Below are positions 5,201-62,547 of a stretch of DNA of 64,000 bases, piece after piece. The notes below the pieces were generated by a model, which saw only the letters and a list, made by a program, of their open reading frames with translations, was not told where the DNA came from and made no database searches. This DNA comes from Owenia fusiformis (lineage: Eukaryota; Annelida; Polychaeta; Sabellida; Oweniidae). The translations under genes were made by a program, and so were the position numbers. The first letter of the stretch is position 1; the number at the start of each line of letters is the position of its first letter. The DNA is taken from the NCBI GenBank assembly GCA_903813345.2, contig CAIIXF020000004.1, positions 5,351,525-5,415,524 on the forward strand, given 5' to 3'.

Positions 5201-8200
5201 GGCCTGCAGCTATACACAAATATTATAGCCAAACTTCAGCTATATTATCTCTCCATTAACTCCCATATAAATGCTTTGCTAGGTATGAAATAAATTCTTA
5301 TATGGATGGGTATACATCTACCCCATTTCTAGTTACATCTACCTCATTTCTTGGCAAATTATACATATTTGTATCCGAGCAAAACAGAAAGTATGAGAAA
5401 TAAAAATAAATCTCATCCACCTGATCCAGAATGCCAATTTCACCCAGCTGATGAAAAATGCCAATTGCACCCACCTAATCCAAAATGCCAGTTGCACCCA
5501 CCTAATCCAAAATGTCAATTGCATCCACCTGATGAAAAATGCCAATTGCAACCACCTAATCCAAAATGTCAATTGCACCCATCTGATGAAAAGTGCCAAT
5601 TGCACTGAACCCATCTGATGAAAAATGCCAATTGCACCAATCTGATAAGTAAATGTCAATTGTGTTTGAACCAGTTTCCATTACATACAAGGACTTTTAG
5701 TGAACTCTAAAAAGAGGTGCTTTTTCTTTGTATAAAGAAGTTTTGAGCAACTTTGCAGCCCTCTAATGTCATGTACAACACCAATTCTATGTGTTATAAC
5801 TATATGTTATCTACCTTTGCCATTGTGTATATTTACTCACATACTATTCACATAGAAACAGGACCCCGCTTACATGTAAGTATGTGTTTGAAAGCTTTCC
5901 TGTAATCCTTGCTCCTAGTAAGATATACAATGACATTTGTAAGTGAATTACAAAAAACTACAATTGCTGTAAAGTATATGTAGTTTTCCTTTGCATGAAT
6001 AAACTTCCCAGGGTGAATTGAATGTAGGAATAAGCAAACAAAGAAAGGAACATAGCAAATGACAAAAGATATTGATATGAAGCTTATAAGTTTAGCAACG
6101 CTTGACATGCGGCTTGACCATTGAGAATAAAGCCTGTTTGAACTTACATCATTATTTTGCAAATTGTGATTATTTTCTTTCTGGCCAATGAATCCAGTAG
6201 TTGAACTGGAACATCCTGGAATTGGATCGGGCAACTTAGAATTCTGACCATAGAATCCGGTAACTGAACTGGAACATCCTGGAATTGGATCGGGCAACTT
6301 AGAATTCTGACCATAGAATCCGGTAACTGAACTGGAACATCCAGGAGTTGAATTGGGCAACTTAAAATTCTGACCATAGAATCCAGTAGTTGAACTGGAA
6401 CATCCTGGAGTTGAATCGGGCAACTTAGAATTCTGACCATAGAATCCAGTAGTTGAACTGGAACATCCTGGAATTGGATCAGCCAACTTAGAATTCTGAC
6501 CATAGAATCCAGTAACTGAACTGGAACATCCTGGAATTGGATCAGCCAACTTAGAATTCTGACCATAGAATCCAGTAACTGAACTGGAACATCCAGGAGT
6601 TGAATTGGGCAACTTAGAATTCTGACCATAGAATCCAGTAGTTGAACTGGAACATCCTGGAGTTGAATCGGGCAATGTAGAATTCTGACCATAGAATCCA
6701 GTAGTTGAACTGGAACATCCTGGAGTTGAATCGGGCAGTGTAGAATTCTGACCATAGAATCCAGTAGTTGAACTGGAACATCCTGGAGTTGAATCGGGCA
6801 GTGTAGAATTCTGACCATAGAATCCAGAAGTTGAACTGGAACATCCAGGAATTGGATCTGGCAACTTAGAATTCTGACTATAGAATCCAGAAGTTGAACT
6901 GGAACATCCAGGAGTTAAATTAAGCAACTGAGAATTCTGGCCATAGAATCCAGTTGTGTTCATCTCTATGGTCGAAGGATCGTCAGACTTTGAATTTGGA
7001 GCATTGTTGAATGGTGCTACTTTGATATGTCTTTTGTTTGTTCTTAAGTTCCTTTTAAGATTTTGTGATATTATACCACGTTCTTTAAGATGTGCCACGT
7101 GTTTGTGAAGATTCCAGAATGTTAAACATTGTAGGACAAGGAGAACTATTATGTGCAGAAACATGATGATACACAACCCCATCAAATGATACTCATGGAT
7201 AAGGCCATTGATCAAATGGCAACCTTTGTGTGTATGCTTGTTTCTATGAAACAAAGTAAAGGTACTGACATACACCATCCAGAAAGCTGCTGTCAGTAAT
7301 ATCAGAGCATAAGCAGTTTTTTTACTAAATGCCCCTTTTACACATTTTTGCCTTGTGGCTAGGAACATTTCAATCCAGAGCAGAAGAACACCCGTCATGG
7401 TTACTCCTGCTGATGTGAATGCCAAATAGAAGGTAATTAGACAGGGTATTGTCTTGCTCGATATTTCAGATAGTTCAAATGTTCCTCTTACAATTAATAT
7501 TGCTCCCAATATAGTGTCATTCATAGCTAAGTATCCACGAATTATGTTTGAAACTGTTTGTAATTTTTTATAGCGCTTAATTGCCATAACAACCAAAAGA
7601 TTCACTGTAAATATTATAACTGCTATTATGATTTGCAAAATTGGTGTGAGTAAGTTCTTGTCTTCTGTCATTCCTATTGAATTTTCCATTAAAGTGACAT
7701 TTGTACATTTGTGATCACCACTGAGATTACCAAAAAGTGTACAGCTTACCATCATGACTGCATTATGACTGACCATTATTGATGTATTCCATTTTCTTTG
7801 ATGCATAACTCCTACTGTTTTAAACCATGCCATGGTCTTTTGTTCAAATTGCTGTGTTGAAATGAAACACATGACACTTCAGTTGTGTTGTTTATAGTAT
7901 AATAGGTAATGTTTGATTTCTCAGTTGTTAAAGACAACCAATTTCATTCTTTTAAAAAGACATTAAAGATGATAATAGTATCGTTCACCATCCACAATAG
8001 TGAATGATGCTTATGCTCTCATATTACTGACGGTAGCTATTTGGATTGTGTATGTCAGTACCTTTACTTTGTTTCATAGAAACAGTCGTACAGACAAAGG
8101 TTGCCATTTAATCAATGGCCACAATAGTGGATTGTGGATGATGTTGTCATATCTTTCACTATTCTTAAGGATGATTAATTTCAATTAATCTCTCTCAGGT

Positions 8201-41076: not shown

Positions 41077-44000
41077 TTAAAAGAAAACTTGTCTGGTTTG
41101 CTGTTGCTGACTTCGTCCCCGATTACCTCTATTTCCTCCCCGATTACCTCTATTTCCACCTCTATTACCTTTATTTCCTCCACGTCCTCTATTTGATATC
41201 CTATTATTCCTTCCTTGAGCAGTCTGATTTAAATTCACACGCTGACGATTCTGATTCTGGTTTTGTTTAGAGAACCGTTGATTACGGTTACGATTTTGTC
41301 CTCCTGAGATCTGAGTGGCTGTTTGACTGAATCGTTGCGAGATTGACATTCCACCCCTATTGTATGAGAATCCTAGATTTTGTTTTTTAATGTTTGGAGG
41401 GATTGAGTTAGAATTCTTGTTCTTGTTTTGCAGCTTCTGAAAAAGAAATGTTACACCATTTCATCGCATTTTGTTTGAATAAATATTCCAATTTTTGATT
41501 TTATATGATTCTACGGATTCAGGACAACACAAGATTGTGCAACAAAGAATGGTTTAATTTAAAGGAATTCCAGGCGATAAAAATAAATTTAAGGGTTATC
41601 AAGAAAGGTAAACAGGGAATAACGCAGAATTTATATATTCAGGACAACTTTTTGAGCTACAAAGAGCAGTTTAACTTAATCCAGAATTCATATAGAGCTG
41701 GGTTCTGAATATCTATGCTCATTTTTACATGAAGATAGTTTCATCTTTGAATTCTGGGTAATTCCCTCCTTTTGGGTTTACAGTACTTTAACCATCATTA
41801 TTTTGTTGGGAATATTTGCCCTAAATTGCATACCCTAATGGTTTGCTGTGTACTGTTCTGCTTTCTTGGCTGGTTGAGTTGTTGTTTCTTCCCCCTCTGG
41901 CTCATATTGTTTCTGGTCAGCTTGTTTTTACTGTAATAAACATAATACATTTCATGAGATGGGAGGAAGTTCGATAAAAGGAAGATTAATTTAAAAGTTC
42001 CAGTAAGTGCAGGAGAGCGACTGATTATTTGGTTGACCCAAAAAACAATACTACTCTGCTGGCATCATTTGTAAACCCATGTTAAAGGGCCGTTATGCTG
42101 AGAATATTCTCGAAAAATGTAACACCCTAACTCTGCAGCAAGTCAAAAATTCAATTTGACCCAGTTGGGTAGATCATGATTTTCAAGGAACTGTCTCAAT
42201 ATGATTTTGGCCCTTATTACCATGGTTCTGCAACACCCAGGTAATTTCTCTAGAATACTATGGTAATTTCTTAAAACGATGGTAATTTCTCCTAATACTT
42301 TAGTAGTTTCTCCTAATGCCAAGGTAATTTCTCTAGAATACCATGGTAATATCTTAAAACTATGGTAATTTCTCTGAATGCAAAGGTAATTTCTCCAAGG
42401 TGTGTAATGTCCTTTTAATATGTTCTTTAAAAATGTGGCAAACAAAGCTGTTTTTAATTTCAGAAAAGGAGAGAACTGATTGTTTTTCCCTGCAACTTAA
42501 ATAAACGTGAAAAAACTTGATTAAAGTTAAAAAAATGTGCATATCTTGACTAAACTTTGGCAATGACTCTGAAAATAAAAATTCTGCACACACTTGAAGA
42601 AAAAATCCCTGAACACTAGTATGTAAAGTATAATGTAAACATACCCATAACTGGGTTGGTTCCTTATGTTGACTGTGAGTAATCCTCCACTTTGATTATT
42701 CTGGTTTTTCCTTCTGTTGCCTTGGTTACTCAAGTTTTTTCTGTTACCACGGTTACCAGCCTGTATCCTAGAAACAGAAAATAAAACTTAAAAATTGAAA
42801 AAAATAAATGATTGAGATTATTCAAGGAACAACATTTACAAATACAACAATGGAAGTATCAGTTGAATAATTTTCAAATGATTTCAACTCAATTTATCAA
42901 CTGAATACTTTTATCTTTAAGAACCAATCAACTTACTGTAATTTCTTATTCTGGCCACGTTGTAATTTCTGTTGGATTCGTTGCCGTTTTTGCTGTACAT
43001 TTTGTTGCTTAGCAACAGCATCTGATCTCAAAGTCCCATAGGTGTTCTTGAAGTTGTTACGGTTAAGCTTTTTCTTGCCTTGGGGTTGATTTTGATTCTG
43101 TAAACAGAACAACAACAGGTAAACTGAATGATGAGTCTGGGGGCCGTTTCTAGAAAGTTTCGTTATTAACGAATCGTTAATTCAATTGTTAATAACGATT
43201 TTTCTGTTTCTCAAAAGTTAATGATTCGCGATGACGTCATGGTTTGTAACGATTTATTCGTTATCCATGATGCGGTGTCCATAGACAAATCCACGATTCG
43301 CTATTAACGATTCGTTAATAACAATAAGTTCCGAGAAACGTCCTCCTGGGAAACTGGGCATGTAGGTCATAGCTGCAATACCATATACGCAATGTTGTGA
43401 GAGTCAGGTTATTTTGTAGTTCAAGTGGTAGAGCACATGACATGCAATATAGGGAGGCTGTTTGTTTGAATGACTTTCTCACATCACATGAGCCATTTAG
43501 ATTTGTTTCATGTTTCAAATTAACCAAGACTTGATTTCATGAAAACATATAAGACATGAGACCCAAAACCAAATAGTTTTGACGTGAGCCACCAAATTCT
43601 TCAGCATATACATGTATACATGTTAATATAAATACAATAACTTGCAACTGGTTCATAATACAATTTTGATACTGGTCAAAATCCTTAAGAATACCCTGGA
43701 TACCTTCTCTCCATCCTCCGATCACAGGGCTTCAAAATCCAGAATACAACAACAACATTGCAACAGCAATCATGTATACGTCATCGGCGCACAATTAGAT
43801 CACATGATTCAGTTTTTTCAGGCGCTTCTAAATTGATAATAGCAGGAGGTTATAAGAAGGAGGTACAGATTCGAGACACCTGCTTAGGAGGATACCTTCT
43901 CTCTCATGCAGATTATATTCATTCATAAAATCATTCATGTAGAAATTGAATTAAATCCTCTTTAAAATTTTAAACATTTTTTTTCAATTTGGAACTTGTT

Positions 44001-47000: not shown

Positions 47001-48567
47001 CAGAGATTTATTGTAAACTCAAAGAGTGAAGACAAGCTCTCTAAGAAAGGAGTCACAATCCTGGAGTGGGTAATAGTGAAAGCGTAAAGACTGTTCTAAT
47101 AAAAGATAGGTCAGCCTTTATAAGAGTTAAGTCATGGATTGATCATTTAGCCTAGGCCTAGCCTAGTTCAACGTCGTTAAACTCAATAACGGCGTTATTT
47201 ATTATTAAGAATTTTCTTGGGGCCATTATTGAGTTTAACCTCTTTACTATTCTTTCCATTGATGCAAGATTTGGATCCACCGAAACCATTTTTTCGCGAT
47301 AACATGCAACTGATACTTGACAACAATATAAAAACACATTACATCAAGCGATTCAACACAATATTATTGTATTAAATGGTCATTTATACAAGTAAAATGA
47401 GGTTAAACTTACCAATCTCTAAAATGACATTTCCGCATGTCCTTCATTGTGTCTGTTCGTCCCGGGTTAAAATTTAAACTATTGAAACGAAATTGTTGTC
47501 AAATAGATTGATAATTATCACGCGATTACTCGGGATAAAATAGCAATTTTTGAGGATAGCAGGTATCTTTGATTGATTTATATAGCGCTTGTATACACAC
47601 AAAATCGTTATTAATTGCAAACCTACTGTTCGTTGATGCAGTGTCGCAATGACGGTTAATTCCTGATACGATTTGCAATTTCGATGTTACCGGAGCTGAC
47701 CGATATTTTCGTAAAATTCCAAACCTGTCTCCAATATTTTCGTAATTATGCATCAATATGGTCTAAGGGGGGTACGGGATGGTGTGTATGTATTTATAAG
47801 GTATGTATGCATGCTTGAATCACATTCTTTATGTAATATTACCATGTTTTCGGAGTTTAATTAGTTCCGCATGTCGAAACCTGCTGAACGATTAAATGAT
47901 CGCAACAAGGGCAAAATCATCATGGAAGTTAGACCTAGCCGGGGCCATAAGACATGTCAGATAAGAAACGAGGCCCAGGCTAGGTCTAATGTTGTTGGAC
48001 TAGGCCTAGCCCAGTCTGCCTAACCTAGAGTCCATTTCACTGCTTCATTTCGTCAGTAGAACGGCAAATATAAGAAATTTGGAGACCATTGTGCAATAAT
48101 ATATGGAAAAGTATATTCATAATGTACATGAATGACATATGTATATCTTGGATTGCTTCTAGTTTGGCTTATAAAGTGTGTGGCCTCTTATATTTGGATG
48201 TTTCTCTGCCATGTTATTTTCAATAAGATTAACATGGCTGAAATTCTTCAAATTACAAGACGGCACAACCTTATTGCACAAAAAACTAAAAAATCTGAAA
48301 TATACAAATGTCATTCATGTACATTATGAATATACTTTTCCATATATTATTGCACAATGGTCTCCCAATTTCTTATTTTTGCCGTTCTACTGACGAAATG
48401 AAGCAGACTCTAACCGGGACAATTTTTCCCCGAATTTTTCACTTGGTCAGCAATTTTCAAAGACCAAAGAATGTATCACTTTAAAGTTAATCATGATAAA
48501 AATTCTCGCATGCTTGTAAAAAATACTCACCAAGCGACATGTCAATTTTGTCCATTTGGGAGGCCAT
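41077..48567 (-). CDS. FYTTD1: UAP56-interacting factor (UIF/FYTTD1-like) mRNA export adaptor
   Basis: Seven phase-consistent exons on the minus strand: 48567-48531, 46480-46326, 45828-45700, 43097-42937, 42767-42645, 41930-41834, 41436-41077 (353 residues; human UIF 318). The N-terminus MDKIDMSLDDIIKLN is the UAP56-binding motif that links export adaptors to the DDX39B helicase in TREX; an intron splits it inside the Asp codon. GVSPMKR (UIF: GISPMNR), SGGLLTVNI (UIF: GGILTVSI) and a C-terminal MSISQRF (UIF: MTLNERF) follow in the UIF order, setting it apart from ALYREF, which shares only the first motif. The middle is Arg/Gln/Asn-rich. The last exon has Gly-Asn-Arg-Gly repeats (about GGNRGNRG x3), suited to RNA binding and arginine methylation. 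Predicted nuclear. Confidence 0.85.
42240..42400. repeat. Short imperfect tandem repeat in UIF intron 5
   Basis: GGTAATTTCTCTAGAATAC / GGTAATTTCTTAAAACGAT / GGTAATTTCTCCTAATACT units of about 20 bp recur seven times. Several read as TTACC on the minus strand and are not splice sites. Confidence 0.7.
43138..43352. mobile_element. MITE with GTTATTAACGAATCGTTAA inverted repeats
   Basis: GTTATTAACGAATCGTTAAT near 43165 and TTAACGATTCGTTAATAAC near 43302 are inverted copies. The outer ends GGGGCCGTTTCTAGAAA and TTCCGAGAAACGTCCTCC are weakly inverted. Located in UIF intron 3; no coding. Confidence 0.65.
43360..45699 (-). other. UIF intron 3, mostly featureless
   Basis: The intron runs 43098-45699. 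Apart from the MITE at 43138-43352 and a TAAATAAATAAATAAAT simple repeat at 44288, possibly a LINE tail, I see nothing. The short open frames carry no recognisable domain. Confidence 0.6.
46481..48530 (-). other. UIF intron 1 with repeats
   Basis: It contains the MITE at 48028-48410, a dispersed TTGATTGATTTATATAGCGCTT repeat near 47568, and a CpG-richer stretch around 46740-47000. No other exon was recognised. Confidence 0.6.
48026..48412. mobile_element. MITE with ~110-bp inverted repeats, copy 1 (right end deleted by 8 bp)
   Basis: TA flanks 48028-48410. The arms pair GAGTCCATTTCACTGCTTCA..GTACATGAATGACAT with ATGTCATTCATGTAC..TGAAGCAG. It matches the copy at 61923-62313 almost base for base, but lacks TGAAATGG near its right end. 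The open frame 48132-48329 is a product of this repeat. Confidence 0.9.
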
Positions 48568-48883: not shown

Positions 48884-51800
48884 ATGGAAAGTGGCATTTT
48901 GGCAGCTGCAAATACTACCCCTATTGCGGGTCTTAAATGCTCTCTATTTCCAAATAATCAGTACCAATGTGTGAGTAATTATATTAACTTTATAGAATTT
49001 ATAAAATCAAAAGTTTACATTCGCATGAAGAGTGGTGTTTTTAAATAAATTGAGATGATTTTTTTCAAATTTTTACCTTTTTGGACAAAATTATAAACAG
49101 GAAGTGGGATGCTTCATATGGGGGAGCTCAAGTCAAGAGGAGAGATAACCACAGAGCTTAGAGATGACAGATATATTTATGTCTCTTGCTTACCACAAAG
49201 CCTTCGTTTTCACCGTCTAGACTCCGATACCATGGGCGTAGCGCTATTTTTCTAAGTAGTACGCCACCATGGGAGCCCGCATGCGAGCAATAGTTGAGAG
49301 AAGCAAAAAAGCATTCAGGGGGGTCTGTGGGGTTCTCCCCCTTGGAAAATTTTGAAATTTGGTTGTATTTGGAGCGAATTTGAGACCATCTGGTACGCCT
49401 GTGCGTACCCAGCAAACTGGGCGCTATGCCCATGGATGTCACACATCGTCGTGATGTTAGCATATTTCCTTTGGTCTTTCTATTTTTTCAAAATCATGCA
49501 GTTTTTCACCATTTTGAGCACTTCTCAAGTGATTTAGCCATATTTGGGCCAGAATTGTGAAATGTGAACCCCCTGGAAATATTTGAAAACTGAACCCCCC
49601 TTGGCAAATCCTCGCTATGGGCCTGTACAATATGAGTTTACTTTGGGGAAGTTAATAAACATGACAAGGAATGATATGAGCCAAAAATATTCTAAAATTG
49701 GAACAATTTTGAATTTTTGTTACGGTTTTGCTTCACATTATATGTTGGCAAATAAATAATTAAAAAATGCTAGAAAAAAAACAAGTCACTACAAGTTAAT
49801 CCTTAGACTAGAATGTATATCGGTTATACCAAATTATGCCAGCCACCTAGGACCCTTGGATCCAAAGACTGATGCTCTACCGACTGAGCTATAAAGGCTT
49901 AAGCCACTACAGCTGGACTGTAGTAGCAACTTGCTATCAAGGGTCGTTACAGTATTTTTGATTATACTATTTCAGGATGTCATCGTTGCCGTGAAAAGAG
50001 CCATGGCATCACTGTCATTGGTTGGATGGTGAGCAATATTTTTAGATATTCCACTCTATTTTACTTCAATTGAGAAAAGTGATTCTACTCAGCCTAGATT
50101 AAAAATATTTCATAAAAGGAGCTAAATCTTTATAAAAGCAATTGAGAAAAGCAATTCTACTCAGCCTAGATTAAAAACATTTCATAAAAGGACCTAAATC
50201 TTTATAAAAACATCTGTGGTATTCTCACCCTCTGAACTCACGAGGAAGGAACAAACAGAATGAAACCTTGTATTCAAAGGATGTTATTTTCATTGATTGT
50301 CATATTGTTTATATAAGACTGGTAGATCATCATAGCTGTTCATTTGATTCAACCAATCATTCAGAAAAATTCACAGAGATCCCATTGTCAAGTTTTTCGG
50401 ATTTTTCATGTGTAACATGAATTAAGATTTTAAACCATATTCATTTTTTTTTCTATTTCAGTTTATTTATGATATGTGTGATTGTACTCTTCAAGAAGTA
50501 TGCAGCATTTGCACAGAGGTTGATACTATATCTCAGTGTAGCAGCGTTCTTTGACAGTGTCGCCTATCTTATGGTAAGTATCGCCTATCTTATTGTAAGT
50601 GTTGCCTATCTCATGGTAAGTATTGCCTATCTTATTGTAAGTATTGCCCATCTCAGGGTTAGTATGCCTATCTCATTGTAAGTATCGCCTATCTCATGGT
50701 AAGTATTGCCTATCTCATGGTAAGTATTGCCTATCTCAAAATATTGCCCACCTCAATGGATGTTGAAAGGGGTGGTTTGGAACTATGACGTTTCATTACC
50801 TAGATTTATGTATTGAAAGATATTTTTAACTTGTCAGCTCAATTTTATATCTAATAAGGTGTACAAAAAACACACTCCTTAGAATGGTTGTTATTCACAA
50901 TTTTAAGTTTCACATTTTTCACGTTTCACATTTTTTCTTGTTTCACATTTTTCATGTTTCACATTTTCTCGTGTTTAACATTTCAGGGTGAGCTACATCC
51001 AGATGGGCCGCTATGTGACTTCCAGGCCTGGTGGTTGACATACTTTGGTAAGCTATCATTATACTCTGAATCTGTATCAGCAAGTTACACTTCCCTCTAA
51101 CTATTCTAACGATTTACAATTTTGATGCTGGTGAGGTCTTAACAATCTCAAGTATAGATTCCTTGGAGTTTTATGTGAAATGATCTCAGCTACTTGTTTG
51201 TGAAAATGTAGTGTCATAATTTTCTGATGACATAAAGGAACCCTTGATAGCAAGAGATCTCCCTCACACTGAATCAAGTAGGCACTACATCCACTAAAGA
51301 CTTTAAAAATGGGCTTGCACACCTGAAAACAAATACATTGAAAAGAGGAAAATAGGCATATTTTGACCAATTTTTATGGGAAGTGTGCAAATGAGAATTT
51401 TGCATTCTTCTGAAGATAGAATCCTAGGGAAGAACATTGATTAATTTATTAACACTGATTAACTCATTATAACTGATTAATATATGAACACTGATTAATT
51501 TATTTCTTCATTCCAGATTGGAGTGTGCTATTGTGGGTATGCTGTATTACATTCAACCTCTACATGAATGCCATTCGCTCAGTTATAACAGAGAAATATG
51601 AATGGTAAGAGCAATGCTTAGCTCACCATTAATAATTTGATTTAAAAAATATCTAGCTTGGCATTTATCAATGACCGCTAGGAACTTTTTTTTATCTCAC
51701 TTATATTGTTATAATTCAGTGCTGATGGGCTTGCAGGCAGGCAGCACAAGAAATGTGTTATCAAGAATCAAGAAAGCAAGACAACTGTTGAACGTAAAAT

Positions 51801-57800: not shown

Positions 57801-60800
57801 AATTGACCAATAATAAGTCCTGTTGTCTTCCACGTCGTCTTTGTAGTCATATACTCGATGGGGCGTAGTTATATCCTGTGATTTGAATTAATAGTTACCA
57901 AAGAAGCATTTGCAAGTGCTAATCACCATGAGGGCTAAACTAATATTAGAGTTTCAATATCATAGGCATGTAGCAGTAGCCAAAGGGGGCTCTTGAATGA
58001 GCCCAGTCCCCAGATTTCACTGAGGAACATTTTTCATTCACCTCATTAGGTTAATGGAGGTTAATGGACCAAATCTAAGTATTTCAAATAAAAAGTGCAT
58101 GTACTTTATTTATTTGCAGATTCCTAATCATTTTGATTAATTACATTTCCTGAGCAAGCCTTGATATTTCAAATGAAATTTTACTATATTTGTTTGCAGA
58201 TGGTATGGACCATTGTTCTTGATTATTGCTCTGTTGTTCTTTGTCTACATATACATCATCGTCATGGTGAACCGTAGGGTGAGTACAACATTTACCAGAT
58301 TTTTTCATTTCATTTAAAGCCCCCTTTCATAGCACCCTTATGGTTTATGGAATATATATTAAAATTTCAAAAAGCGCCAATGGGCTTTTATTCCAAAGTT
58401 TTTCAGTAATAGTACTGCTCAAACATTAAAACAAGTCACATGTAAAACTCCATTTTGCTATATTAAGTGCAATGTTCAACTCAAACTTTGTATTTAAAGA
58501 TAACTTCATAATGTACCTTAATACCAACAAGCTGCAGTACAAATTTCCATCTATGGGTGATTTTGCACTAATTGTTAGCTGAATTGTTGAACAGTAATAT
58601 ATTGGTATCACTTTCTTATGATTTTATATTTTAACATGATTCACATCTTAGTGTATTCTGAGTACAGTAATTGTACAGTAATTCTATTTTCAAGTAAATA
58701 TCCACTTAAAAAGAGTGCATTTTATTGTAAATCACCATTTAAATTACAATAACAGTGTTAAATGCAACCTTGCCTATTAACCGAGACATTATTGGTCTCT
58801 GATTAAAAGTGATACATGTATTTATATCAGGGGATCTATCATTTATCTGAAAACAGGCAAAATGATTGGAAAATTGATTTTAACATGAAATAGTTGCAAA
58901 ATTCATCAAAACAATTGGTGATTTTGATAATGAAAACACCTGGAGAAAACCGTTGTTTTACATGATGCAAATGAAACCCCTGATTCTTGATATAGATTTT
59001 TTTATTATTATTATCTGAATATAATTGTTATTGTAGGTTAAGACCTGGGAAGGGACATATGATCCTGACACAGAGAGAAGTAAGGTATGGAATCTTTAGA
59101 TGTAAAATGTATCAGAAGTGTAGTGAAAGGAATTAGAAGGGAATCTTGGGAAGGGACATATGATCCTGACACAGAGAGGAGTTAGGTATGGAATATTTTA
59201 AAGGGTACAATCCAGCAAACGTTTATCAATGCTTGAGAAAACTAATGTTGATTTTTCATTGAATCAACAGTGAGAAATAATTAGATAATAATTCGGTGTA
59301 TAATTAGAGGAATAAGAAGGGATGGGGTGTTGAAGGCATTTTCAAAAATCATGCCAATGTTTTCTGTAAGATTCAAATTTTATTTTCTGAAAAGAATAAA
59401 GATATCTGATGAAATAAAGAAGTCATTTAGCATTAAGGATGCAAAATTGTCCAAAGTTCATAAGAATTGAAAAGAGACGTCCACCGTTTCAATTTTTTGC
59501 CAAATAACCTTAAAAGCTGAAGGAAGATTAAGACTACATGTACAAGCAAAACATTTAAAAAAAAGACAACATGGAATGATGAAAGCAATGGATGAATGGA
59601 AAATTAATCCATGCTTCAAATACTCAATATTGTTTTATTTTTGTTTATTTCTCTCTTTTCAGCAACTTCTTAAAGAAGACATCAAGCCCCTAAAAGGCTA
59701 TCCTTTTGTATATCTTGCAGTTTCACTATTTCCACTAATCGACAGGTATGTGATCTTTTATTTATTTTGCAAAGGGTATGTACACGATGAAGATGTTCCA
59801 GATTTGTTAATAAAAACTCAGAATAAAATTCTGCGCTGAGGGTTGATGTGAAAAAGTCAGTCCACCCTAGTGGGGATTGAACCCACGACCCCTCGCTTTC
59901 TGGACGAGTGCTCTACCAGATTTTAGAGTATGATTTACAATGAAACCACTGAATGAACTTTGAATAGGAGTGTAGATTAGCCATCCATTTATTCATCTCT
60001 CTCTTTGTGTGATAATTCAAATACTGGTCGACAGATTTGATTCAATTGTATATATACTGATGCCTTATGGACTCTTATGGACATAAGAGCTCTCCTCATG
60101 GATTTTTTTTTCAAAATGTTATCTAAGATCAAAGTATTTCTGTAGTTGAAAAATGTAATTTTATGTGTTTCAGAATCCAGAATGCTTTTAATCCAGAGCC
60201 AGTATTTGCCCTGATGCTGTTACATGTAATCTCATCTCCACTACATGGTAAGTGTTCATTTCCGCGTGGTAAGTGTTCATTTCCGCGTGGTAAGTGATCA
60301 TTTCCACAGCCAGTTTTCCTCAAGGAGGGCTGGACTTTTTGTGTTTAAGGGGCAGCTTTGACAAATTGTTTAAAACTTTGCCTTGTATACTTACCAGTTT
60401 GACTCTGAAATTGATTTTTTAGGATCTAGGTGGAAAGTGGGTACTTTAAATAACTTTAGAATAGTAAAAAACTGGTGTCATGAACTTAGCAATATGCCTG
60501 ATTGCTTGTTGTGTCAATATTTACGTGTCCTACATGTTCATGTGTCCTATATGTTGATGTGTCAGTCTTCGTTTGTCCTACATGTTGATGTGTCGGTGTT
60601 CATGTGTCCTACATGTTGATGTGTCAGTGTCCATGTGTCCTACATGTTGATGTGTCAGTGTTCATGTGTCCTACATGTTGTGTTTTGTGTGTTTCACATT
60701 TTTTCTGTGTTTCAGGTGCCTTAAATGCAATAGTGTTTGGAATGGACAAAGAAACAATGAGCAAATTGACACCTTCTCAAATAAAGGTAAGTCAAAAGTT

Positions 60801-62547
60801 GTTTTAAATCCAAAATAAGAGTACAAAAGAATGCAAATAACATGGAATTAAGGAAACAGCCATGTTTACAAAACCTGATTGGAAATCATTATTTCTAGTA
60901 ATTAATGAATTCACCTTTTGACTTTTTTACAAAAATTTTACAAAATTATATGGGAAAACTTCACACTTGGTGGCAGAGGTCACACCTAAAGGAGCCCCCC
61001 AAGGTAAACGCTGGTTCTGGGCTGTTGGAAGACTAGAGATACTAGAGATTTAAGATTCTAGAGATATATCATAATTTTGGAAAAACTCACATACCGTATT
61101 CGCTGTAAAAAGCGCCCAGGGTGCTTTTGAAATTGAAATTTCCATTGTAACCCATTACAAAGAGCGCCCATATATGAGAGAAGTCAAAAATCTCCGGGAA
61201 TTTCATGTATGGGAATTTTTCTTGCCAAAAGCCCTTATTTGCTACGAAAGTGACAGCATATTTTTACAATAATGATATGTATAGTTATTGGATAGAATAT
61301 GGTAAGATCACTTAAATAAAACAAGAATTTAACATTGATTGAAGAACTCCCCAGCAAAGCCCCTCGAAGTGAAGGAATTGTTTTCCACGATTATCTTCAA
61401 TATTTCCGCAATAGACTGTTAGATCTTAAGTTATACCTTTTTTTTTTTAATTTGATGACAGATCATCATTTTTCGAGTAAAAGTTATGTAAAAGTCGAGA
61501 AATCTTAAAAAGAAACAAGAAAGTTCACGACCTTGACATGACCTTGACAATCGCTAGCTAGTAAAATGTCGAAACAAAACTCTGAAACGTGATCATTTCC
61601 TTCATTCATTATGGACTATATTGAGTTTACTATGATGTGGGAAGCACCCACTGATAGATATTTATCAGGAGGATGCATCGAATTATAAAATGTGTCATGT
61701 TTTTTGCATTTTAGTGTAAGTACTCTATTATCGCCCACTATATTTCTTTGGAAATTTGATTTTTTTTCTGATATATTCGTTAATACTTGGTCATTCCTCG
61801 ATATTTCTTGATCTCTGTGAAGCGGGTGGGCGCTTATTAGGGGTGGGCCCTTATTACAGCGATTACGGTATTTGCCTCGTTCTCTTAACATCACCATGTA
61901 AAAATTCCATTTGGTTTTATTAGAGTCCATTTTACTGCTTCATTTCGTCAGTAGAACGGCAAAAATAAGAAATTGGGAGACCATTGTGCAATAATATATG
62001 GAAAAGTATATTCATAATGTACATGAATGACATTTGTATATCTTGGATTGCTTCTAGTTTGGCTTATAAAGTGTATGGCCTCTTATATTTGGATGTTTCT
62101 CTGCCATGTTATTTTCAATAAGATTAACATGGCTGAAATTCTTCAAATTACAGGACGGCACAGGCTTATTGCACAAAAAACTAAAAAATCTGAAATATAC
62201 AAATGTCATTCATGTACATTATGAATATACTTTTCCATATATTATTGCACAATGGTCTCCCAATTTCTTATTTTTGCCGTTCTACTGACGAAATGAAGCA
62301 GTGAAATGGACTCTAGCTCTTTGTGTCCTAAAATGATTTTCTTTTGATTCTCTTTTATAGGTTTTAGAAAATAATGATATTTTTTTCTTTAAAGGTGGCG
62401 ATTAAATCACATTTACAGCGTAATGAGATTCTCGAGTATCCAGTTGTGATTCGTCAAGCTGATGGATCATTGACGCCTGTGTCATCTTTACCCGATGGCA
62501 GTGCGTTTGATAAATTCAACAGTGTCTCATACTCTAGACTGCACTAA
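48884..62547 (+). CDS. cAMP-receptor-like (Dicty_CAR family) seven-helix receptor
   Basis: Thirteen phase-consistent exons: 48884-48970, 49976-50028, 50462-50573, 50987-51047, 51517-51604, 52583-52672, 53006-53050, 58200-58278, 59037-59084, 59663-59745, 60174-60247, 60716-60786, 62395-62547 (347 residues). Seven hydrophobic helices run from VKRAMASLSLVGCLFMICVI to PVFALMLLHVISSPLHGALN. Family marks: PLCDFQAWWLTYF before TM3, the TM4 VLSWGFPLIM, loop-2 GAWCWI, and a Lys/Tyr-rich loop before TM6. This is the architecture of slime-mould cAR and metazoan CRLA-like/GPR157-related receptors. The short N-terminus has one NTT glycosylation site and no signal peptide. The ligand is unknown; cAMP should not be assumed. 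Starts head-to-head with UIF. Its intron 7 hosts an antisense lectin gene. Confidence 0.87.
49332..49626. mobile_element. Diverged copy of the CAGGCCCGTAGC MITE
   Basis: AAAATCATGCAGTTTTTCAC, TGAACCCCCCTTGGCAAATC and GCTATGGGCCTG match the element at 5004-5216. The left end is unclear because another insertion seems to lie at 49230-49460 (TGGGCGTAGCG...CGCTATGCCCA, inverted). Confidence 0.6.
49795..49960 (-). mobile_element. tRNA-derived SINE fragment
   Basis: Read on the minus strand: a short leader with GCTGTAGTGGCTTAAGCC, then the tRNA-like TAGCTCAGTCGGTAGAGCAT (A box) and a worn B box. The leader matches the one before the SINE at 63486, in opposite orientation. Confidence 0.6.
50559..50760 (+). 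repeat. 21-bp tandem repeat made of the exon-3 end plus its splice donor, about 8 units
   Basis: The unit is GCCTATCTTATG joined to gtaagta plus two bases. It starts within exon 3 (last codons and real donor at 50574) and repeats through the intron; six further copies keep a GTAAGT and one has GTTAGT. Units are 21 bp, in phase with the exon, until a 20-bp unit near 50662. See findings. Confidence 0.9.
51913..52516. mobile_element. Mariner-like non-autonomous element with TA duplication
   Basis: TA flanks 51915-52514 (600 bp). The ends CAGGGTGGGCCAAAAAAAAC and its inverse, continuing as GCCACTTTT, are near-perfect TIRs of about 30 bp. No transposase frame. In intron 5 of the receptor gene. 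Confidence 0.85.
53051..54032 (+). other. First part of receptor intron 7; no gene recognised
   Basis: Sequence with GGTGGGTGCA-type short repeats at 53313-53460. The open frames 53221-53436 and 53289-53588 have no recognised domain. The F-type lectin gene begins at 54471, on the other strand. Confidence 0.5.
54033..54397. mobile_element. hAT-like MITE with CGGAAC-rich subterminal repeats
   Basis: The element is 54041-54389, with ends TAGAGGTGTCAC and (inverse) TAGAAATGTCAC. The flanking 8-mers ACAAATTA and ACATATTA differ at one base, as expected for an aged 8-bp hAT duplication. More than ten GGAAC/GTTCC motifs cluster near both ends, resembling subterminal transposase sites. Confidence 0.7.
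54471..56571 (-). CDS. F-type lectin (fucolectin-like), secreted, nested in receptor intron 7
   Basis: Three phase-consistent exons: 56571-56493, 55403-55176, 54676-54471 (170 residues). Residues 1-17 (MQIILAVIFTLNAVTCQ) are a signal peptide. The rest is one F-type lectin domain: NVALHKPAAQSS, VAVDGN, SCTHT, RPWWKVDL, VKLVNRID, RLANFKIEVS, and final CEVAVYGE. The fucose-binding pattern is H-x26-R-x-D, present as His of CTHT to NRID. Between that Asp and the following Arg of RDRL there are five residues rather than the usual four, and the vicinal cysteines common here are replaced by Thr-Arg. F-type lectins bind fucosylated glycans in innate immunity or gamete recognition; binding by this one is inferred. 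Confidence 0.85.
55700..56470. repeat. Degenerate CCCCTGGGG-type repeats in lectin intron 1
   Basis: Segments such as CCCCTGGGGCCAGATAAAT, CCCTGGGGGAAATAAATCTG and CCCCTGGGGCAATATTGC recur at about 55755-55830 and 56375-56455. The rest of the intron (55404-56492) shows nothing. Confidence 0.4.
56580..58199 (+). other. Last part of receptor intron 7; no gene recognised
   Basis: A+T-rich sequence upstream of the lectin gene, which would hold its promoter. No exon, RNA gene or clear transposon end was found. Confidence 0.5.
59147..59196 (+). pseudogene. Decayed duplicate of receptor exon 9
   Basis: TGGGAAGGGACATATGATCC then TGACACAGAGAGgAGTtAG|GTATGGAAT copies nearly all of exon 9 (59037-59084) and its donor about 105 bp downstream. 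AAG has become TAG, a stop in the exon frame. The upstream acceptor is not copied. Confidence 0.85.
59850..59940 (-). mobile_element. tRNA-like (SINE-type) fragment
   Basis: On the minus strand, CTGGTAGAGCACTCGTCCAG then GGTCGTGGGTTCAATCCCCA carries the end of an A box and a full B box, with CCACTAGGG-TGG as a pseudo-acceptor stem. The 5' half of the tRNA is missing, so it is not a functional tRNA gene. Confidence 0.55.
60238..60303 (+). repeat. 21-bp tandem repeat of the exon-11 splice donor, 3 units
   Basis: GTAAGTGTTCATTTCCGCGTG occurs twice, followed by GTAAGTGATCATTTCC. The first GTAAGT is the expected donor of exon 11. Each unit offers an equivalent donor 21 bp on. Confidence 0.85.
60524..60690. 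repeat. ~31-bp minisatellite (GTGTCCTACATGTTGATGTG), about 5 units
   Basis: Units GTGTCCTACATGTTGATGTG plus TCAGTGTTCAT repeat between 60524 and 60685, ending about 30 bp before the acceptor of exon 12. Open frames here are repeat artefacts. Confidence 0.8.
61092..61870. mobile_element. DNA transposon remnant with CCGTATTCGCTGTAA ends and TA duplication
   Basis: TA flanks 61094-61868 (775 bp). The left CCGTATTCGCTGTAAAAAGC and right GCCCTTATTACAGCGATTACGG are inverted; AAGCGCCC / GGGCGCTT recur inward. The minus frame at 61616-61930 has no transposase signature. Confidence 0.7.
61921..62315. mobile_element. MITE with ~110-bp inverted repeats, copy 2 (intact ends)
   Basis: TA flanks 61923-62313 (391 bp). 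Both ends read GAGTCCATTT(C/T)ACTGCTTCAT inward. Nearly identical to 48028-48410. It sits about 80 bp before the terminal exon of the receptor gene. Confidence 0.92.

Follow-up and report, generated by a model that had tools for sequence, protein, structure and literature searches.

Tandem duplications of exon/intron boundaries that are unstable in length have been named mirages in amphioxus, where they occur in Adh3, in the globin genes BflGb6 and BflGb9 and in TnC (PMC3087553, PMC3902484). Their units measure 10-72 bp in Adh3 and approximately 150-160 bp in the globins, and RT-PCR data suggest that they leave splicing undisturbed (PMC3087553, PMC3902484). Arrays of boundary copies have been studied under this name in amphioxus, and it has been proposed that new introns may arise from them; in the open literature covered here, mostly titles and abstracts with few subscription papers, we recognized no use of the term outside amphioxus. 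Lancelet PGBD5 carries imperfect repeats of 60 and 108 bp that overlap the 5' and 3' splice sites (PMC3902484). In human segmental duplications, internal tandem repeats at exon-intron boundaries are associated with alternative splicing and novel introns that have transcript support (PMC2812944). Intron gain by tandem duplication is described by the Rogers model, with the potato RdRp gene as a case (PMC4974935).

Here, we report an analysis of 64,000 nucleotides from the annelid Owenia fusiformis (the window, meaning the whole stretch of DNA analyzed), in which a cAMP-receptor-like gene carries such an array where exon 3 meets intron 3 (Table 1). The genome has a GC content of about 34% and 12 chromosomes, which speaks against amphioxus and for O. 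fusiformis, as does its set of forkhead domains: these are present on nine contigs and absent from three, and if the contigs are taken to be numbered alphabetically, their distribution is that published for O. fusiformis (chromosomes 1, 2, 3, 5, 6, 7, 8, 11 and 12), with a close pair on chromosome 11 that fits foxC-foxL1 and tandem groups on chromosomes 5 and 7 that fit foxQ2. With a probability of roughly 0.82, we regard this array as a boundary minisatellite of the mirage kind, most likely neutral, in which donor 1 is the normal splice site. The arrays of O. fusiformis extend the mirage kind to another phylum. As in amphioxus, boundary copies stand in tandem, many of their splice signals are intact, the boundary involved may be 5' or 3' and the units are short to medium in length; the homogenized inner copies and differing end copies of the BflGb6 mirage have their counterpart here in a paralogue. 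The differences are that amphioxus is a cephalochordate whereas Owenia is an annelid, and that the arrays described here are known from the genome sequence alone. The same distinction applies to the human boundary repeats, which are likewise minisatellites at exon-intron boundaries but are transcript-supported. The PGBD5 repeats also lie over splice sites, although their units are longer and the gene family is a different one. In the Rogers model a duplication across a boundary similarly yields extra splice signals; here, however, the intron was present before the array and no new intron has formed. With two boundary arrays in one annelid gene and another in a paralogue, the process does not seem to be peculiar to chordates.

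Table 1. Features of the receptor gene and its tandem arrays, in window coordinates
Feature	Position	Strand	Basis
Receptor gene, 13 exons, 347 codons	48884..62547	+	Gene model; Dicty_CAR PF05462, E = 7e-20
Exon 3, Dicty_CAR-type receptor gene	50462..50573	+	Gene model, phase 0 at 3' end; paralogue junctions
Donor array, eight copies of TYGCCYATCTYATK/GTAAGTA, 21 bp	50560..50726	+	Direct reading, copy-by-copy parse, TRF, resampling
Donor 1, GTAAGT, presumed regular 5' splice site	50574..50579	+	Intron position kept in paralogues
Donor-less degenerate array end	50727..50755	+	Copy-by-copy parse
16-17 bp array, unit GTTTCACATTTTTCATG, up to exon 4 acceptor	50894..50983	+	TRF, sequence comparison, genome-wide pattern counts
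Exon 4, GELHPDGPLCDFQAWWLTYF	50987..51047	+	Gene model
18-bp array, 4 copies, 13 bp before exon 5 acceptor	51433..51504	+	TRF
Exon 11	60174..60247	+	Gene model
Second donor array, TGGTAAGTGTTCATTTCCGCG, period 21, 2.9 copies, 97% matches	60246..60305	+	TRF, parse
31-bp array, 4.7 copies, unit end GTGTCAG, 36 bp before exon 12 acceptor	60535..60680	+	TRF

The first copy of the exon 3 array, TCGCCTATCTTATG/GTAAGTA, joins the last 14 nt of exon 3, which form its exonic part, to 7 nt from the start of the intron. Parsed copy by copy, the copies start at 50560, 50581, 50602, 50623, 50644, 50665, 50685 and 50706; seven are 21 bp long and copy 6 (50665) has 20 bp. Their donors lie at 50574 (the real one), 50595, 50616, 50637, 50658, 50678, 50699 and 50720, and GTAAGT is present in seven of these eight, the exception being copy 5 (50658), which reads GTTAGT. 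The base before the donor mostly alternates between G and T from copy to copy, and degenerate part-copies nine and ten carry the array to approximately 50755. Direct reading and the parse thus bear out the preliminary description, which had seen the exon end and its donor repeated about eight times as a 21-bp unit with GTAAGT kept in six of the seven intronic copies; the copy number is that of the assembly and represents one haplotype. Tandem Repeats Finder (TRF) gives period 21, 8.5 copies and a score of 263, while the maximum score is 69 when the whole window is resampled 30 times under a Markov-1 model, and in a genome-wide search the unit has a single location. The array gives no support for selection on its donor hexamer, as four of the 21 six-column windows vary as little, and a pattern of homogenized inner and differing end copies is not clear in this array.

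As modelled, the gene encodes a 347-residue protein that matches Dicty_CAR and, more weakly, G-protein-coupled glucose receptor families. Based on hydropathy and the general features of GPCRs, the end of exon 3 is predicted to be the extracellular end of TM2, and the start of exon 4 to belong to ECL1 with the DGPLC cysteine. Use of donors 2-5 would extend exon 3 by 21, 42, 63 or 84 nt (7, 14, 21 or 28 codons) in frame and without a stop, each successive donor adding one block of residues (VSIAYLI, VSVAYLM, VSIAYLI and VSIAHLR) and so extending the hydrophobic stretch of TM2. Because copy 6 has 20 bp, donors 6-8 all give premature stops: donor 6 shifts the frame, and a stop lies within the extensions made by donors 7 and 8. 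The earlier claim that residues could be added in sevens until a 20-bp unit breaks phase is therefore correct. A refinement concerns the site of the junction, which follows residue 84 of the model, where TM2 is predicted to end on the extracellular side, and is not in the middle of the helix. Predicted U1 duplexes have -11.0 kcal/mol for donors 1, 3, 7 and 8, -7.3 kcal/mol for donors 2, 4 and 6 and -8.0 kcal/mol for donor 5, within a range of -6.2 to -11.5 kcal/mol over all donors of the gene. Owing to the equal pairing of donors 1, 3, 7 and 8, the use of donor 1 is not forced by sequence alone. With identical donors competing in one intron, the choice of the spliceosome should be measurable from published Owenia transcriptomes.

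The age of the intron can be judged from two neighbouring paralogues, A and B, on another chromosome. The exon 3/4 junction of paralogue B (C9) lies at the same place (AYLM/GEL versus GYFW/GDV) with one GTAAGT donor and without an array. In paralogue A, the start of exon 4 corresponds in position to that of the receptor gene; the donor comparison at exon 3 rests on paralogue B, paralogue A being compared at the start of exon 4. Since its position is shared with these paralogues, intron 3 predates the array. In paralogue B (locus L070/L069, C9, ~8.61 Mb, minus strand) there is a 68-bp array of 6.8 copies. Its unit joins CTCTCTTACAG to the opening ~45 nt of exon 5, six copies lie in the intron, and paralogue A has no such array. 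Five of the six intronic copies have an intact ACAG acceptor. The inner copies read TATGATG and both end copies TATGGTG, a base difference that is an apparent mark of internal homogenization. A tandem unit spans an exon/intron boundary at 50560-50726, at 60246 and at exon 5 of paralogue B, and many units keep their splice signals (7/8, 3/3 and 5/6, respectively).

In the exon 11 array the donors lie at 60248 (the real one), 60269 and 60290, all three of which keep their splice signal; each extra copy would add seven codons in frame with no premature stop. The acceptor of exon 4, CATTTCAG, is carried by the last, degenerate GTTTCACATTTTTCATG unit. Six of the eight tandem arrays in the receptor gene lie at most 40 bp from a splice site (p = 0.002), or five of seven when the reported exon 3 array is left out (p = 0.004), as measured against random placements of each array inside the intron to which it belongs. 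Two of the eight actually span a boundary (p between 0.02 and 0.10, according to the null model used). These p values concern one gene and were computed post hoc; the crowding of arrays near splice sites is firmer than the spanning of boundaries, which is less certain.

Genome-wide, two GTTTCACATTTTTCATG-type units followed by TTTCAG within 30 bases occur at five places including this one and in reverse order at none, although the numbers are small. At least three further, unrelated genes (L002, L003 and L004) have similar 16-17 bp arrays immediately ahead of probable acceptors, with the exons judged by eye. Tandem GTAAGT shows no clear excess over the genome (5814 versus 5556 for the reversed pattern) and AGGTAAGT falls below its control (115 versus 331), in a coarse test whose counts take in overlapping matches and large satellite families. 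At L055 (C1:4090875 onwards), a 21-bp GTAAGTAGACAACATACGAGT array starts ~40 bp past a possible donor whose region resembles the GTAAGTAGACAACATACGAGT unit; the gene concerned weakly matches CBM_14 (chitin-binding). Among minisatellites in 115 kb of sampled DNA, this window included, periods of 17-21 bp are the commonest and 21 is the top single value, so that the keeping of frame by a 21-bp unit may be incidental. We therefore set aside frame-keeping as a sign of selection.

For the exon 3 array, the preliminary description had left a choice between a switch of splice length and a neutral array that has no effect because the first donor is used, and it is the neutral alternative that we favour. 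In its favour are the age of the intron, the further boundary arrays at exon 11 and in paralogue B, the crowding of arrays near splice sites and the matching anatomy in amphioxus, where splicing is reported to be undisturbed. In a switch, choice among donors 1-5 would lengthen the end of TM2 by 0, 7, 14, 21 or 28 residues, most of them hydrophobic, and thereby alter the receptor. That donors 2-5 are in frame without a stop, that donor 3 (+14 residues) equals donor 1 in U1 pairing, that the hydrophobic stretch of TM2 grows with the residues added and that human boundary repeats can give alternative splicing (PMC2812944) all speak for a switch of this type. Nevertheless, it is unlikely: donors 6-8 lead to stops, the array is not kept between related genes as a functional cassette of alternative donors would be (paralogue B has none at the junction), folding would probably suffer from an insertion of 14 or more hydrophobic residues ahead of the ECL1 cysteine, and the 68-bp unit of the boundary array in paralogue B cannot keep frame. 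Given the differing lengths and phases of the units and the lack of a genome-wide excess of GTAAGT arrays, we see no sign of a length switch by design. Equally unlikely is a dimming of receptor expression through donors 7 or 8, whose premature stops would bring about nonsense-mediated decay; these donors match donor 1 in strength and are closer to the acceptor, but amphioxus mirages are reported to have no effect on regular splicing and the exon 11 array of the same gene produces no premature stop. A combination of the two, in which donors 1-5 would grade the end of TM2 in seven-residue steps, donors 6-8 would lead to decay and the copy number would vary between worms, we hold to be similarly unlikely.

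Gain of introns through duplication across a boundary is known (PMC4974935), and intron 3 could in principle have arisen afresh in this way, from an AGGT-like exon segment duplicated in tandem; this is highly improbable, since paralogues on another chromosome have the same intron position, including paralogue B, which lacks the repeat at this junction, and only independent gains would save it. Just as improbable is an artefact of assembly in which a repeat was collapsed or expanded. Tandem arrays are error-prone in assembly, but here the copies differ from one another at several sites, and the array is present once, on a long contig with its flanking exons intact. Several points count against a neutral array in turn: in both donor arrays of the receptor gene the unit is 21 bp long and preserves the frame, which a switch would require; donors 1, 3, 7 and 8 are equal in U1 pairing; the spanning of boundaries as such is weakly supported; and boundary repeats in human duplicated genes can give rise to alternative splicing (PMC2812944).

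In the neutral, mirage-like course that we favour, a minisatellite would have grown out of the exon 3/intron 3 boundary of the receptor gene when the 14 nt of exon end and the 7 nt of intron start were duplicated in tandem, possibly by slippage or unequal exchange. The duplicated copies would then have become intron, with donor 1 remaining the working splice site and the donors beyond it serving as decoys that are removed with the intron, possibly with low-level use. Both the mechanism of duplication and the near-exclusive use of donor 1 are what we infer from the arrangement.

Other repeats were observed in the window. A single-exon, GPCR-like frame on the minus strand (ORF 5848-7878) contains an in-frame coding repeat of 63 bp and 12 copies, GFYGQNSKLPDSTPGCSSSTT, at 6179-6954, which probably lies in an intracellular loop. 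An open frame at 41077-41460, also on the minus strand, has a 21-bp coding repeat that translates to RGGNRGN. Two similar elements of ~400 bp, at 47950-48400 and 61920-62320, have inverted ends, CTGCTTCATTTCGTCAGTAGAACGGCAAA, and are probably a MITE-like transposon.
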